Shown here: positions 1 through 7,164 of the stretch, piece by piece
How the letters are laid out: the number at the start of each line of letters is the position of its first letter
Position numbering within the stretch: position 1 is the first letter of the stretch
DNA from: an uncultured Muribaculaceae bacterium
GTDB taxonomy: Bacteria > Bacteroidota > Bacteroidia > Bacteroidales > Muribaculaceae
DNA: 64,000 nucleotides
Direction of reading: 5' to 3'
Assembly (NCBI GenBank): GCA_944321685.1
Contig: CALUMH010000001.1
Span: forward strand, 1 to 64,000
Translations under genes and position numbers: made by a program
Notes under the pieces: model-generated
Database searches by the model: none
Told to the model about the DNA's origin: nothing
The model's input: only the letters and a program-made list of their open reading frames with translations

Positions 1-103
1 TTAATATGTTCCATGATACAAAGTTAAGCTATATTCCTGAAATCCCCGTTCCACCAACCGGGAAAATCCGCTGATCCGTTACAACCGTGAAAAATTCACT
101 GCC

Positions 104-340
104 ATGTTCCAAAATCTATACAAACAAATAGCCTCGGCCGCACTCATGTGCCAAACCCGAATCTCCTGGTTTGAAAGCGAAGGACACATTTGTGCCAAAA
201 TCGATGTCGATTACAATGGAGACGTGGTACTTATCAACGGAACCGAATTATATGTCCGCAAAGACAGCAGCACACACCTGCTCAAGGGGCAAGATATGGT
301 GGACTTTATCCGCAATTATCAAAAGCAAACTATAAACTAA
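104..340 (+). CDS. small hypothetical protein, possibly a 3' remnant
   Basis: I do not recognise this 78-residue soluble protein. It has no signal peptide or membrane segment; the middle (KIDVDYNGDVVLINGTELYV) looks like beta strands and the end (KGQDMVDFIRNYQK) like a helix. The reading frame stays open upstream of the ATG back to about position 41, so it could be the 3' end of a longer, truncated gene. It is followed after 13 bases by a 37-codon ORF on the same strand and lies at the left edge of a cluster of small and damaged genes. Confidence 0.45.
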   Translation: MFQNLYKQIASAALMCQTRISWFESEGHICAKIDVDYNGDVVLINGTELYVRKDSSTHLLKGQDMVDFIRNYQKQTIN

Positions 341-1175: not shown

Positions 1176-1536
1176 ATGACGGTAACTACACAAGAAGCTC
1201 TTGAACGGGCTTTAAAAAGCAAAGAAACACACATTCGAATAACCGGCACACTGGCCGAAACAATAAAAAGCAAAATACAAAAAACAACGAAAACGCAAGA
1301 AATTGGGTAAACTTATAGCTGCGGGTGGAATCATAGCAACCTCAGTTGCTTTAAACCTAATCACTGGAGGCACAAGTTTAATTGCAGGTGCTACTGCACT
1401 TACTGCCACAGAACTAAGCATTACTGCCGCCGAATTGGCTATAATTGCCGGTTTCACCCTTGCCATGACAGGACTTTTAAAAGGCTATAATGTAAAATTC
1501 AATTCTGATCGTAGTATAAATTTAGAGAAAAAATAA
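1176..1536 (+). pseudogene. small Gly/Ala-rich membrane protein split by a frameshift
   Basis: Two overlapping frames read as one protein. The ATG frame from 1176 (MTVTTQEALERALKSKETHI, stop TAA 1308-1310) gives a soluble N terminus. The +1 frame, open from 1267, gives a basic linker (KAKYKKQRKRKK), then two hydrophobic Gly/Ala/Thr helices and a tail ending NSDRSINLEKK at 1536. Removing one A from the A run near 1265-1269 would join them into about 118 residues. I recall small Clostridia and Bacteroidota proteins of this layout with no assigned function. A TTG at 1303 could start the second part alone. The indel may be real decay, an assembly error or programmed. Confidence 0.6.
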
Positions 1537-1557: not shown

Positions 1558-2046
1558 ATGAGTGATTGGAAAGAAGAAATACGACGACAGACGGGGTGGA
1601 GCCGTGAGATTATGGTTGCTCTGCGGTAGCGGGAAGAAGCCGAGGTTTACATCAATGCCGGGCTAAAGGAGGCGACTGTGGGTGGCAAGCGAGCCTTGAT
1701 TCAGCCGCGGCTCGACCCGGCAATGCTCACTCCCGAATGGTGGATAGAGCATTACCATCGCGACAACTGGCGCGGGTGGAGCAACCTAGACCTCATGCAC
1801 GAAGGCTATGCGCCATTTTCATCGGCCGACATGGGTAGGCCAGGTGACCGCACCGGTATGGATCAAATAGAACTGCACCACATAGGGCAACGGCAAGACA
1901 GCCCGTTTGCCGAACTCACATGGTACCAGCACCACGACTACTTCAAGGTGCTACACAGTTTTGACGACTCGCAAATCAACCGCCCCGAGTTTGAAGAAGA
2001 ACGCCGCCAATACTGGATGAACCGCGCAAAATTCTTTTCATACTAA
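1558..2046 (+). pseudogene. LHH-type HNH nuclease gene with in-frame TAG stop
   Basis: The frame from ATG 1558 reads MSDWKEEIRRQTGWSREIMV and is interrupted by TAG at 1627-1629. It then continues in the same frame (REEAEVYINAGLKEATVGGK) to TAA at 2044-2046. The C-terminal part carries IELHHIGQ and a downstream WYQHH...LH pattern, which fits the LHH family of HNH/endonuclease VII nucleases known as toxin domains of polymorphic toxins. The catalytic part is intact. A GTG at 1678, five bases after AAAGGAGG, could restart translation and give 122 residues with the LHH motif at residues 66-68. No neighbouring immunity gene is recognised with certainty. Confidence 0.65.
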
Positions 2047-2057
2047 ATCTGCTTATA

Positions 2058-2279
2058 ATGAAACGAATCATACTTTTTATCTCTACCATACTCTTTTTGT
2101 GCATGAATTTATACGCACAAGATTTCATGAAAGAAAAACGGATATATTTGGTAGATGTCACTGCCTCAATGATTGGAAAAGGTGGAGTGAAAACGCCTGA
2201 TATATTCAACAAAGTAAAAGACCAACTAACTACTGCAATAAGCAACATTCAAGATACCGATACCGACTTTGCAGCATGA
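2058..2279 (+). pseudogene. truncated secreted von Willebrand A domain protein
   Basis: The 73-residue product begins with a clear signal peptide (MKRIILFISTILFLCMNLYAQ), then enters a vWA-like first strand with the start of a metal-ion site (LVDVTASM, pattern D-x-T/S-x-S). vWA domains are normally about 180 residues, but this one ends in DTDTDFAA followed by TGA. The rest of the domain is absent downstream, where a different zinc-ribbon gene starts at 2299. This looks like a deletion remnant. It follows the nuclease gene by 11 bases. Confidence 0.6.
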
Positions 2280-2298: not shown

Positions 2299-2522
2299 AT
2301 GTTTCGAGGATTGTGCACATTCCGATGCTCCCGGTGCGGCAAGAGATTCATAGCACCCGACTTTGAATATTGCGCCACAACACTTTCCATGCCACAAAAG
2401 TGCCCCGGTGCGGCAGCCTGCGCACTCGCCCTGCCTCATTCATGCTGTTTGGCGATAGCGATGCCTGTTATAAATCAATATGGGATCAAATAGAATCTGA
2501 AACGTCTGACAAAAACAAATAA
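2299..2522 (+). pseudogene. zinc-ribbon small protein, frameshifted
   Basis: The ATG frame gives MFRGLCTFRCSRCGKRFIAP...YCATTLSMPQKCP, a Cys-x2-Cys half-site. After the CCCC at 2403-2406 this frame turns into unlikely protein. The adjacent frame restores the second half-site (CPRCGSLRTRP) and continues ...GDSDACYKSIWDQIESETSDKNK to TAA at 2520-2522. One extra C would give an intact protein of about 74 residues of a type I recall in Bacteroidales. The gene is thus either decayed or carries a sequencing indel. Its stop is 8 bases before the next gene. Confidence 0.65.
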
Positions 2523-2530
2523 TAAGAATC

Positions 2531-3133
2531 ATGATTACCAAAAATACCGTCGTGAAAATCCTGTCATGCTATATGCTGCAAAAAATCAACGAAACGGGAG
2601 AGAACTTTTCTACTGATGAGGACGGCAATGACAACCCCGTGCTTTTTTCGTTGAATGATAGGAAAGGAATCCGATACTTTGCCAAGTGGTTGAAAAAATT
2701 CATAAAATTATCTGTGGATGTTAACGTCTTGCTAAAAAGTTCGGAGAATAAGATAACACTTGACTCATTGACTGATTACATCAATCAAAACAATCCAGAT
2801 GCCAACGATATTGATATATTGACCCAAATCTGTAATCGATATGAAAATTTAATATCTCAACGAAATGATGCACAGGAGTTGGACTTTGAAATATCTCAAT
2901 TTATTGACGACAAATATGCTTCTGATGATAACGATGATGATATCGACCCGGATGAAATCGACCCGGAGTTTGAGGCCAAAATAAGGAAGTTGGTATTAAA
3001 GGACAATATTGTTGCACAGGAAGAACCGGATCCAGTTGATAAAAAAGATTACGTCACTTTACTTCTTGACAACTATATCATAATAAACCGAACTGAATTA
3101 ATAAACGGAGGAAGCCATTATCTGCGTTATTAA
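2531..3133 (+). CDS. acidic hypothetical protein
   Basis: This 200-residue soluble protein is not one I recognise. The N-terminal half is helical with a basic patch (RYFAKWLKKFIKL). The middle (SLTDYINQNNPDANDIDILT) is polar. Residues about 130-145 are strongly acidic (DDNDDDIDPDEIDPE). There is no signal peptide or membrane segment. It starts 8 bases after the frameshifted zinc-ribbon gene and is followed by a hairpin (3138-3162) before the membrane protein at 3203. An antitoxin, immunity or chaperone role is conceivable for an acidic protein near a nuclease, but nothing in the sequence proves it. Confidence 0.6.
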   Translation: MITKNTVVKILSCYMLQKINETGENFSTDEDGNDNPVLFSLNDRKGIRYFAKWLKKFIKLSVDVNVLLKSSENKITLDSLTDYINQNNPDANDIDILTQICNRYENLISQRNDAQELDFEISQFIDDKYASDDNDDDIDPDEIDPEFEAKIRKLVLKDNIVAQEEPDPVDKKDYVTLLLDNYIIINRTELINGGSHYLRY

Positions 3134-3137
3134 ATTT

Positions 3138-3162
3138 ATTCGTTTCAATTCTCGAAACGAAT
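3138..3162. terminator. 9-bp perfect hairpin after the acidic protein gene
   Basis: ATTCGTTTC (3138-3146) and GAAACGAAT (3154-3162) form a perfect stem with a 7-base loop, 4 bases after the stop codon. No T run follows, so it may be a weak terminator or an mRNA-stabilising structure. Confidence 0.4.
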
Positions 3163-3202
3163 CTCACGCATACTGAGTCAACCAACGAAAACGACACACA
3201 AA

Positions 3203-3727
3203 ATGAAAACTGCAATCGCTTGGATAATAGCCAATGTGGAAGGCATCACTACATTAATCGTAGTGGCAGCCTTTGAAGTATTATTGTTTACATCTTCCGC
3301 CGAAATCGACAACAAACCGCTTGCCGCCATCATGGGGCCGATTTTGGCAGCCTTAGTCAAGACCATCATAGGCGGCATCCCGTCGAAAGGCACGGTTACC
3401 GATATAGTCAACCTGCTGCTTGCCGCCGGAGCCATCTATATGGCCACAGCCCTGGCAAACACCCATACCCAGCTCGGCGGACTCGGCGGCATTGCCATAG
3501 GCTGTGGCATAGTAGCGCTCGCCGCCGCTATAGCAGCGGCAGTGTTCACTGCTGCCAACATCAACGAGGTGGTGTCATTGAGAATGTTTTACCAAAACAG
3601 CAACGTCAGCCTGTTTGAAATCACATGGATGTACACATTCAACCGTTTCGTCACCGTGTTCGCATCCATCACAGGCTCGGCACTCATCATCGCCGCCTGC
3701 CAATTTCTATTCCACTCTGCACAATAA
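3203..3727 (+). CDS. polytopic small membrane protein, unknown family
   Basis: The 174-residue protein is mostly hydrophobic, with four or five candidate membrane helices at about residues 14-31, 41-59, 68-86, 93-117 and 149-170, rich in Ala, Gly and Ile. Between the last two is a short polar stretch (NSNVSLFEITWMYTF). No transporter signature or catalytic motif is visible. It is the first gene of a tight same-strand set with the coiled-coil protein (20 bases downstream), the DUF4112 membrane protein and the YbjN-like protein, which suggests a joint inner-membrane function. Confidence 0.65.
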   Translation: MKTAIAWIIANVEGITTLIVVAAFEVLLFTSSAEIDNKPLAAIMGPILAALVKTIIGGIPSKGTVTDIVNLLLAAGAIYMATALANTHTQLGGLGGIAIGCGIVALAAAIAAAVFTAANINEVVSLRMFYQNSNVSLFEITWMYTFNRFVTVFASITGSALIIAACQFLFHSAQ

Positions 3728-3747
3728 ACTTCAAATACACAATAACT

Positions 3748-5892
3748 ATGGACGACAAAATCATTTACCAAAAAATCAAAGACATTGCACACCGGCTACG
3801 GCAGGAAAAATGCACATTCACCCGTGCCGACCTCGCCTACGAGCTGCAAATGAGCGACAGCCACGAAATCGACCGGCTGGTGTGGGAAGCCTATCGTCTG
3901 TTCAATGGCAATAAAGCAATTGAAGAGTCATTCATCGACAATGCCCAACACAATACAATTGTTTACGGCTATCAAGTGGAATTCTTTGCCAATGAAAACG
4001 ACACCGAGGAACTGTTCTCACTGATGCACAACAAGATGGACATCGGCAACAAAGCAATCTGCAAACTCGAAAACAGCATTGCCGCCATGATGCGCCCTCA
4101 AAGCAGTTCAGGTTTCGACCTGCTCGGCACCATAGTCGGCACTAAAGGAGTAACCGAAGTGCGAAAGGAAACCTCTGCCCTATTCGACTGCTATTCACAA
4201 CTTATAGGCAACTACGACGGTGCCCGCGACAGCGTAAAAGTGCTAATCGCCGACTTTGTGACATTGCGCAGCCACGTCTGCGACATTTACCGCCGTTATG
4301 CCTTGGTGCTTATCGATGCTTTCGGCGATTCGGTAAAAGCCATCGCGCCTCAACTATTCGACTTCGACTCGATAGAATGGCTCGACACGCAGCAGATGCT
4401 GCAAAACGTCAAACTCGACTATGACCAAATCACCGAACACTGCTCGATACTGATGAGTAGCATCTCCGAAAGTTTCTCACAGTCGCTCAAACAGGCAAGC
4501 AACTCCTACCGCAGCGCAGGCAGCAAGCAAGCCGGGCTATTACTTGCCGGGCTTAACATGGTATCGCACTACATCGACGCAAGCAGCCGCACTACCGAGC
4601 TTAAAGGCGAACTGCTGACACTGAAGAACAGCGTGAAACACGACGTGACACTTATTAAGGGCGACCTTAGCCGCCTGCTCGTGATATACAAGACGCTGAA
4701 CGACCTGTTTATTCCCCAAAGCGAGGCTTTCTGCCAATACAGCGACCAAGTGCTACAAGGTGAATGGCAACAAATAGTTGACAGCATCTATAAAAATCCA
4801 AACATCCAATCACTGAAACAACAACGTGACAAAATACTTGACCAATGCCGGGAGGTCGAGGCCGGAATAGCCGATGCCGAAACCAATCTGGCATATTACA
4901 CCGCACACATCGATAAGTGTAACACATTGCTTTCCAATATGCTTGACCAATACACCCAGGCCCGAGAAAGCAAACCCAAGAAACCATTGTTATTTGGCAG
5001 AAAACGATACAACCGTGAAATATACGAGTGGAACATTGCTTGCAAGCCTGTCATAACCCGTTACGAAGACTTGCAGACCGACATCAAACTTGACAACGAC
5101 GAGCTGATGAACCAAAAAGCTACACTCGCCCGCCTGCAACCGCGCAGGCAGGAACTTAGGCAGGAACTAAACCGCATTAATAAGCGCATCATGAGTGAAC
5201 TGAAAGTTACCCAAGCAACTCGTGAGAAAATACTGCCGCACCTTGAATCGATTGTCAAGCTGTTACGCATTGCCCGAGAAATCGCAGAAAGCCATCTCGA
5301 CCAAGAACTTACCAAGCGTGTAACAATAACACGGCAAGACACAGAATTGCCACCCGACCTGCAGCAAAACATCGCCGCGTTTGCCAACGGCGTGCGACAA
5401 TTGGCATTCATAGATGGCAATGCCATGGCAGAAGCTATAAGTGACGTGAATAAACAACGCCGAATTGCAGCAGAAAGGGAACAGACTACAATCGATGTCA
5501 CTAACAAACAGCAAAACAACCCGGCTCGGCATACAGAATTGTCGGAAGAAGGTACCCTGCAAATTGCCAATGCCGGCAATGTAGCAATACAAGGCACTAT
5601 CAACCTGCTCGAAGCATGGGGTACCCTGCAAGCCCAACGGGCCAAAAGCGCAATTGCCGCAGAAAAATATGACCAGGAACTTGCAAAGCTGCAAGAGGAG
5701 TTCCGCCGCAACATCGCCGAAATCGATGACAAAAGCGCAATTCTGCGCGAGAGCCTTAGCCGTATAAACACGGCCAAAGGGCATGAGCAACTGAAAGACG
5801 CCCTGCTGTCGCTGGCAGGAAAAGACAGCCGCCTGTTTACCGATGACGAATGGACTGAATTTTTAAACGGAAATAAAACAATAGAACTATGA
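3748..5892 (+). CDS. 714-residue coiled-coil protein with winged-helix-like N terminus
   Basis: I recognise no family. I chose ATG 3748 (MDDKIIYQKIKDIAHRLRQE) because the in-frame upstream extension overlaps the membrane gene ending at 3727. Residues about 10-50 (RADLAYELQMSDSHEIDRLV) look like a small winged-helix module. The rest is nearly all helix: a central block around residues 100-340 without clear membrane helices, then coiled-coil blocks near 350-400, 440-530 and 640-690. A basic proline-lysine segment (ESKPKKPLLFGRKRYN) lies between coils. The overall shape recalls large helical scaffolds or alpha-helical pore-forming proteins, which is only an impression. Its TGA overlaps the next gene's ATG by four bases (ATGA), indicating translational coupling. 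Confidence 0.7.
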   Translation: MDDKIIYQKIKDIAHRLRQEKCTFTRADLAYELQMSDSHEIDRLVWEAYRLFNGNKAIEESFIDNAQHNTIVYGYQVEFFANENDTEELFSLMHNKMDIGNKAICKLENSIAAMMRPQSSSGFDLLGTIVGTKGVTEVRKETSALFDCYSQLIGNYDGARDSVKVLIADFVTLRSHVCDIYRRYALVLIDAFGDSVKAIAPQLFDFDSIEWLDTQQMLQNVKLDYDQITEHCSILMSSISESFSQSLKQASNSYRSAGSKQAGLLLAGLNMVSHYIDASSRTTELKGELLTLKNSVKHDVTLIKGDLSRLLVIYKTLNDLFIPQSEAFCQYSDQVLQGEWQQIVDSIYKNPNIQSLKQQRDKILDQCREVEAGIADAETNLAYYTAHIDKCNTLLSNMLDQYTQARESKPKKPLLFGRKRYNREIYEWNIACKPVITRYEDLQTDIKLDNDELMNQKATLARLQPRRQELRQELNRINKRIMSELKVTQATREKILPHLESIVKLLRIAREIAESHLDQELTKRVTITRQDTELPPDLQQNIAAFANGVRQLAFIDGNAMAEAISDVNKQRRIAAEREQTTIDVTNKQQNNPARHTELSEEGTLQIANAGNVAIQGTINLLEAWGTLQAQRAKSAIAAEKYDQELAKLQEEFRRNIAEIDDKSAILRESLSRINTAKGHEQLKDALLSLAGKDSRLFTDDEWTEFLNGNKTIEL

Positions 5893-6488
5893 GTGACGTA
5901 ACGCAAAGCGGACGCCGCCAAAGAGCGCGACAAGAGTTGGGACTTGACGATGCCCAAGAGCAATACGAAATAGAACGGGCCATATCAAAAGAAGAGGAAC
6001 GGCGTGAAGCAAAAGAAATGCGCCGTCTCGAAATCGAGGATTCTCTTTCATACAAAGCCTGCATGGCCATCAATAAATATATGGACAAATATTTCCTCGA
6101 CCCGATAATAGGTTTCATCCTGCCCAGTTTAGGCGACTTCCTCTCTTCGCTGCTTGTATGGCCGTTTATCTATGTGGCAGCCTTCAAAGTGCGCTCGCTG
6201 CCACTCACGCTCGCGGTGATATTCAATGTGCTGCGCGACATTGCCATCGGTCTCATTCCATTTTGGATTGGCGACATCTTTGATGCATTCAACCGCGGAT
6301 ATTTGCAAAACTGCCGCCTGATTGTCGGTTTTGTCGAAGACGACCAAGAGGTGATAGACGAAGTGAACGGCAAGGCATGGTGGATGGGCGTACTTATCGT
6401 ACTGTTCTGCTTCATAATCTACTGGCTTATAGAATTTGCAATATGGGTAACTACAGCTGTCTCCGATTTTTTCTCTAATTTATTCTAA
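5889..6488 (+). CDS. DUF4112 family membrane protein
   Basis: The 199-residue protein has a long charged N terminus (about residues 1-60, Glu/Arg-rich helix), then DUF4112-like sequence: LDPIIGFILPSLGDFLSS, two hydrophobic helices, and the hallmark GLIPFWIGDIFDAFNRG near residues 125-140. It ends with a strong final membrane helix (VLIVLFCFIIYWLIEFAIWV). The function of DUF4112 is not known. The ATG overlaps the stop of the coiled-coil gene, and the YbjN-like gene starts 21 bases after its stop, so the three are very likely one transcript. The cytoplasmic charged helix could contact the coiled-coil partner (inference). Confidence 0.75.
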   Translation: MSDVTQSGRRQRARQELGLDDAQEQYEIERAISKEEERREAKEMRRLEIEDSLSYKACMAINKYMDKYFLDPIIGFILPSLGDFLSSLLVWPFIYVAAFKVRSLPLTLAVIFNVLRDIAIGLIPFWIGDIFDAFNRGYLQNCRLIVGFVEDDQEVIDEVNGKAWWMGVLIVLFCFIIYWLIEFAIWVTTAVSDFFSNLF

Positions 6489-6509
6489 CTCACTATAACA
6501 ACCCCAATT

Positions 6510-6950
6510 ATGGACAAATCAGAAGTAATGGCATTCATCAAAAGCTGCCTCGACGAATTGGGAATAAACTACGATACCTGCGATGACTGCATCAACATAA
6601 CTTTCGAAAATGACGACGACCTCTTCCCCATAAATGTATCGATATTCCCTAACGAGAATATAATATCGTCATTCGCTGAAATCGATGATATGGAAATACC
6701 CTCCAATAGACGAAGTGTCGTGCTGGAATACATTAACAACTACAGCTGTAAAGGTATAGAAGACGATGGAAATTTCAACGCATATGTTTTCATATATACT
6801 GACGATGAAACGGGGAAAGACTTTATTCACGCCTATAGCAGCACCCCCGTGTGGGAAACAATGGGCAGTGACCAATTCTCTGCATTCACACTCTCCACGG
6901 TGCGGGCTTTAAATGCAGTGATGCGCGACATATTCCGCCTCACGCTGTAA
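6510..6950 (+). CDS. YbjN-like / type III secretion chaperone-fold protein
   Basis: This is a 146-residue acidic soluble protein. The start (MDKSEVMAFIKSCLDELGIN) and the later VVLEYINNYSCKG, FNAYVFIYTDDETG and C-terminal helix fit the YbjN fold, a family related in structure to type III secretion chaperones. YbjN-type proteins often sit beside secreted or membrane proteins and are thought to bind partners; no catalytic residues are visible. It is the last gene of the 3203-6950 set and is followed by the perfect inverted repeat at 6977-7033. The family assignment rests on pattern similarity only. Confidence 0.55.
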   Translation: MDKSEVMAFIKSCLDELGINYDTCDDCINITFENDDDLFPINVSIFPNENIISSFAEIDDMEIPSNRRSVVLEYINNYSCKGIEDDGNFNAYVFIYTDDETGKDFIHAYSSTPVWETMGSDQFSAFTLSTVRALNAVMRDIFRLTL

Positions 6951-6976
6951 CCACACGAATCATATTATTAACTCGG

Positions 6977-7033
6977 GCGAATATAGTGCGCTTGTGTCTG
7001 ACATTTCTGTCATGACAGGCGCACTATATTCGC
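6977..7033. repeat. perfect 15-bp inverted repeat at the right end of the accessory locus
   Basis: GCGAATATAGTGCGC (6977-6991) and GCGCACTATATTCGC (7019-7033) are exact reverse complements around a 27-base loop that contains TGTCATGACA. It follows the last gene of the accessory set by 26 bases and precedes clpB. A bidirectional terminator is the simplest reading. The long stem without a T tract also leaves room for an integration or recombination scar. Confidence 0.6.
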
Positions 7034-7164
7034 TTAATTGTGACATAATATACATTCCCGGCGCATGGTACAATCATTGCAAATTAATAAACGGAAATTA
7101 AAAGCTAAATAAACACGGAGAGGCATACGCCCTCAATTTTGGAAACAATTAAAAATATACAATT

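Follow-up and report, generated by a model that had tools for sequence, protein, structure and literature searches.

Do the five closely spaced genes at positions 2531-6950, all read from one strand, encode a single membrane-associated machinery, as the earlier note on this DNA proposed, or does a smaller unit stand out among them? The window analyzed here (64,000 nt) opens contig C1, which belongs to a genome of 2.67 Mb, and covers its initial 64 kb; its nearest match is a locus of an uncultured Muribaculaceae bacterium (L018). Our ORF check found the five same-strand reading frames, including an ATGA overlap, exactly as claimed, with intergenic distances of 69, 20, -4, and 21 nt along the row. 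Together with their surroundings, they are arranged as follows:

104..340, + strand: Schlafen/AlbA_2 gene, 3' end; the gene is split by the end of an insertion sequence that lies at the contig edge
1187..1536, + strand: frameshifted small helical/membrane gene
1678..2046, + strand: LHH nuclease, 5'-truncated by an in-frame stop (PF14411, E = 3e-20)
2058..2279, + strand: remnant (start of gene) of a secreted vWA protein
2299..2493, + strand: remnant of a small zinc-ribbon protein
2531-3133, + strand: acidic protein, 200 aa, net charge -17; lineage-specific cargo outside the core
3203-3727, + strand: polytopic membrane protein, 174 aa, MKT..W.IAN.E family; optional helper
3748-5892, + strand: coiled-coil protein, 714 aa; core gene 1
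5889-6488, + strand: DUF4112 membrane protein, 199 aa (PF13430, E = 2.3e-12); core gene 2
6510-6950, + strand: acidic protein, 146 aa, possibly YbjN-like; lineage-specific cargo
6977..7033, no strand: inverted repeat with 19-nt arms (6977-6995/7015-7033), between the island and clpB

When the five genes and their upstream neighbors were scanned, only the DUF4112 gene and the LHH nuclease matched Pfam, and none of the five was named in NCBIfam or PADLOC profile searches. The tight spacing on one strand speaks for a five-gene membrane secretion or defense complex, but the acidic and YbjN-like genes occur in two species only, being broken in one of them, and the polytopic membrane gene is also present without the coiled-coil/DUF4112 pair. 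The synteny survey of other loci thus contradicts a five-gene system, which we regard as extremely improbable. What remains of the proposed membrane/coiled-coil complex is the pair itself: the acidic, polytopic, and YbjN-like genes occur independently, whereas the two members of the pair do not. For the suggested toxin or export role, we found no support.

Outside the window, both acidic genes were detected only in a congener (G001): the 200-aa gene is frameshifted there, and the gene at 6510-6950 (2 of 79 relatives) is broken by a small insertion and stops. The YbjN-like label given earlier to the latter gene derives only from a weak PDB sequence match (6vu7, E = 0.061), with no YbjN match in Pfam or NCBIfam. 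Homologues of the polytopic membrane gene lie beside the pair, downstream of DUF4112, in three Prevotella loci (L021, L024, and L039), a decayed one is found in L019, and two loci carry the gene without the pair (L111 and L112), in line with a helper shared among related islands. Ninjurin identity of this membrane family was considered and judged noise (E = 0.008, in one of six homologues).

The coiled-coil gene was found at about 42 other loci in searches that covered whole genomes, plasmids, phages, viral contigs, and a one-genome-per-species collection, with all ORFs of the loci scanned, and in nearly all evaluable cases a DUF4112 gene follows directly downstream. The gap between the two ranges from -11 to 164 nt, except for two Paludibacteraceae loci (L043 and L054) with one gene in between; the other loci lacking a directly downstream DUF4112 gene are L055 (contig end), L047 (where the contig stops at a frameshifted gene), and L056, which is distant. 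Throughout the nearest clade the ATGA overlap is kept; it is exactly -4 in the window, L018, L020-L025, and L039, and the overlapping genes are probably translationally coupled. Distance matrices of the two proteins correlate with r = 0.89 (n = 29; matched in 0 of 5000 permutations), a value that still contains shared species history. The coiled-coil and DUF4112 genes are one conserved two-gene unit, evolving as a pair. This pair is under purifying selection while neighboring genes decay: a comparison of the window with G001 gave a pN/pS of 0.23 for the coiled-coil gene (17 non-synonymous against 21 synonymous changes) and of 0.04 for the DUF4112 gene (2 against 13).

The pair is a mobile accessory module. 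It is rare, being present in about 1% of Bacteroidales species (2 of 9 genomes of the genus, 4 of 297 of the family, and 3 of 393 of the order). The coiled-coil gene resides mostly in Bacteroidales; it also turned up in Myroides and in a Treponema bin, and one copy lies on a plasmid of Segatella hominis. Phylogenetically, the window copy clusters with one from Paraprevotella (96/93) and is separated from two further Muribaculaceae copies, and the Treponema copy falls inside rumen Bacteroidales (100/100), bearing in mind that bins can contain stray contigs. A phylum-wide profile search returned only short coiled-coil matches apart from the window itself, so that hardly any members seem to exist beyond Bacteroidales and a small number of recipients; a Winogradskyella match (L056; 25%, without DUF4112) is of uncertain membership. 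A phage or prophage origin was considered and dropped, as phage records and viral contigs gave no match. The island borders on clpB in the window but on a TatD-type gene in G001; in other congeners, the neighbor of clpB is carA. Patchiness, mobility, and one copy on a 317-kb S. hominis plasmid might suggest selfish or plasmid-maintenance cargo, such as a segregation or addiction unit of no benefit to the cell, and the combination of a winged-helix-like domain with a coiled coil would be reminiscent of some plasmid segregation proteins. We nevertheless consider this very unlikely, given that the other loci are overwhelmingly chromosomal and that purifying selection is accompanied by an old divergence of the pair within Paludibacteraceae.

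What, then, could the two proteins do together? Core gene 2 encodes a genuine member of the DUF4112 family (PF13430), which includes fungal Mar1, scoring 47.5-48.7 bits against a curated cut-off of 23.3. The paired forms differ from stand-alone Bacteroidales members in a charged N-terminal extension of ~50 aa (RRxxAxxxLG; RR..LG), present in 30 of 30 paired proteins and absent from all six stand-alone ones, none of which has an adjoining coiled-coil gene. Given this distribution, the paired proteins most plausibly contact their partner through the extension. The structure model of the DUF4112 protein is poor (pLDDT 69), and a fold search with this poor model found nothing. In the passages on DUF4112 consulted in the literature, we encountered no description of the coiled-coil/DUF4112 pair; Mar1 is described as a mitochondrial protein with two TM segments (PMC10033685; Mar1 is also the subject of PMC6002136), and two T6SS papers mention effectors labeled DUF4112.

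The coiled-coil family (about 700 aa) is named in none of the searched libraries: the protein belongs to no Pfam, NCBIfam, or PADLOC family. Scattered weak profile matches that might have pointed to a known family were judged coiled-coil noise. Among 33 homologues, PADLOC gave isolated matches of coiled-coil type (DruC in two, E 8e-5; LmuB in one), and TelA (PF05816) was not matched in any at E <= 0.01. An ATPase head of SMC or Wadjet type is not indicated either, with no ATPase family match and a near-all-helix model that leaves no room for one. A PDB sequence search with the coiled-coil profile found nothing, Foldseek returned no PDB match at E <= 0.001, and in the viral library it found SMC-like coiled coils at a TM of about 0.1.

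The AlphaFold model of this protein is good (pLDDT 84.9, pTM 0.76) and divides it into an N terminus (aa 1-85), a three-helix region (126-348), a hairpin (351-486), and C-terminal helices that end in a conserved tail. The model is compatible with the winged-helix-like N terminus recognized earlier in the 714-aa protein; this domain is net negative, which does not favor generic DNA binding. The hairpin tip (405-431) is net positive in 33 of 33 homologues and combines a conserved KP..P with, in most of them, a largely hydrophobic stretch that reads FFLxNxxTFG in many.

The best structural matches of residues 126-348 are BAR domains (3caz, Z 11.0 over 197 residues at 5.7 A; BIN1, Z 8.8), such Z-scores being common for long helical bundles, so that the three-helix region may at best be called weakly BAR-like and the resemblance serves as a lead only. 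Taken at face value, it would accord with a housekeeping module for membrane stress or remodeling, in which a BAR-like scaffold and its anchor serve envelope maintenance without any conflict role and patchiness reflects niche adaptation. Bacteria are known to possess a membrane-sculpting protein that resembles BAR domains (BdpA, PMC8687657), the mitochondrial two-TM protein Mar1 fits such a picture, and many loci (e.g., L033, L035, L041, and L053) have housekeeping neighbors without defense genes. However, unlike BAR/F-BAR proteins and BdpA, the coiled-coil protein lacks a sequence match to these families, and it carries a winged-helix-like domain and a second hairpin in addition to the three-helix region. 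The net charge of this region is neutral to negative among homologues (mean -1.9, range -8 to 2), which does not favor classical BAR membrane binding. As a housekeeping role would also leave the enrichment of WYL and nuclease genes described below unexplained, we regard it as rather unlikely.

The hairpin raises a different prospect. In ClyA/XaxA-type alpha-helical proteins, the heads insert into the membrane, and XaxA (Z 8.8), AhlC (8.4), and SmhB (8.0) as well as MakA and YaxA are among the structural matches of residues 351-486 (pore-former range 7.8-8.8). The pair could accordingly be imagined as an intracellular pore-forming or abortive-infection device whose conserved tip with its hydrophobic residues inserts into the membrane, DUF4112 keeping the coiled-coil protein inactive until triggered. 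Yet unrelated coiled coils, including Smc, dynein, and LSD1, score the same. The XaxA/YaxA, Ahl/Smh, and Mak pore formers share the long hairpin and hydrophobic tip residues with our protein, but the latter has neither a family-wide sequence match (MakE, the only one, appears in 1 of 33 homologues with E = 1.1e-4) nor a signal peptide for export; it is cytosolic, and its gene is coupled to that of a membrane protein. Such a device thus seems distinctly unlikely.

The neighborhood of the pair bears on whether it belongs to defense islands, as had been suspected, and here the support is circumstantial. WYL regulators, which have been reported to co-localize with phage defense islands (PMC9122601), are encoded near the pair on the same strand at 8 loci versus 0.38 expected (directly upstream in L030 and L047), where the expectation assumes 3.6 WYL genes per genome over the surveyed flanks, the background comes from 15 genomes only, and three of the eight loci are related ones from Segatella/Leyella. 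LHH nucleases occur near the pair in the window, L018, G001, and L038, an Endonuclea_NS_2 nuclease with a lipoprotein-like signal and a vWA protein occur in L020, a homologue of the candidate-defense family PDC-M09A adjoins in L027, and serine/threonine kinases are found in L021 and L039. In one genome, Prevotella lacticifex, a type II CRISPR-Cas locus (cas9, cas1, and cas2, the latter two identified by eye; L032, 9185-14039) begins 0.4 kb beyond the DUF4112 gene and shares its strand. That neither core protein is named by any PADLOC model argues against a defense reading, as do the many loci with housekeeping neighbors only.

Taking these lines together, we tentatively read the pair as a membrane-tethered surveillance or remodeling module of the accessory conflict/defense genome. 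The DUF4112 protein would reside in the inner membrane and hold the cytosolic coiled-coil protein through its charged N-terminal extension; the latter, placed at the membrane, could touch lipid or its partner with the basic/hydrophobic hairpin tip. Its three helices may serve to sense membrane shape or as a scaffold for it, and a signal, either protein or nucleic acid, may be bound by the N terminus, with membrane perturbation, for example by phage entry or a membrane-active toxin, as the conceivable trigger. The pair would then be one module of a changing conflict/stress island whose exchangeable helpers might comprise nucleases, a periplasmic vWA protein, zinc ribbons, and WYL-type regulators. 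A more specific version strikes us as rather improbable: an unrecognized immune module in which a DUF4112-tethered BAR-like or pore-forming coiled coil would detect changes that phages induce in the membrane and respond by remodeling or breaching the inner membrane, interchangeable nucleases acting as downstream effectors.

Membrane-associated two-gene defense systems such as Kiwa combine a small membrane protein with a larger cytosolic protein, are patchily distributed, and have defense-type neighbors. The present pair resembles them in all these features but differs in that neither of its proteins matches PADLOC. For an unnamed family of ~700 aa, the analysis provides a partner, a genomic context, and a pairing rule, and, within the DUF4112 family of unknown function, it links a subgroup to a defined partner; should the module be defensive, gut Bacteroidales would gain a further immune mechanism, one operating at the membrane.

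The nuclease, vWA, and zinc-ribbon remnants described upstream of the five genes proved real, by Pfam match for the nuclease and by identity to intact homologues for the other two. An intact LHH nuclease of 162 aa exists in a congener, and in L038 an LHH protein is encoded 3' of the pair. In its first ~66 aa, the vWA remnant shares 62% identity with the full-length vWA protein 3' of the pair in L020, and identities of 50-53% link the zinc-ribbon remnant to intact proteins from L036 and L104; intact zinc-ribbon homologues flank the pair in L036 and accompany the helper membrane gene in L111. L027 and L036 carry homologues of the frameshifted gene at 1187..1536 close to the pair (that of L036 assigned by eye). 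Farther upstream, the Schlafen/AlbA_2 gene is interrupted by an insertion sequence whose ends are inverted (GGATCAGCGGATTTTCCCGGTTGGTGGA) and whose target is duplicated over 8 bp (GTTACAAC), and contigs C31 (at its end, L087) and C1 (window 1-340) both terminate in this element.

On the downstream side, the inverted repeat closing the row is real and larger than the 15 bp given before, with arms of 19 nt. Folding of 6977-7033 yields -40.8 kcal/mol (z = -8.9), and the window contains no other copy of this palindrome. A canonical intrinsic terminator was considered and discarded, as the U-run is absent.

Some further observations concern individual loci. Along 3203-6950, divergence between the window and G001 (L009) is uneven, which suggests recombination along the island: the membrane gene has 0 synonymous changes, DUF4112 is changed at 10% of its synonymous sites, and the YbjN-like gene differs by 19% at the nucleotide level. 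The insertion in the G001 YbjN-like gene (L009, about 6925-7090, minus strand) is MITE-like, ~120 bp long, with inverted ends TGTCCGATAAA/TTTATCGGACA. Proteins that appear uracil-DNA-glycosylase-like by eye form a cluster found near the pair at 8 loci (e.g., L036 9025-9681, L029 5318-5914, and L009 14405-16210; those of L036 and L009 have no Pfam match). Finally, a sibling island (L111, 747-5073) carries the helper membrane gene, a zinc ribbon, and a divergent WYL regulator together with a different coiled-coil protein of 389 aa that has hydrophobic segments.
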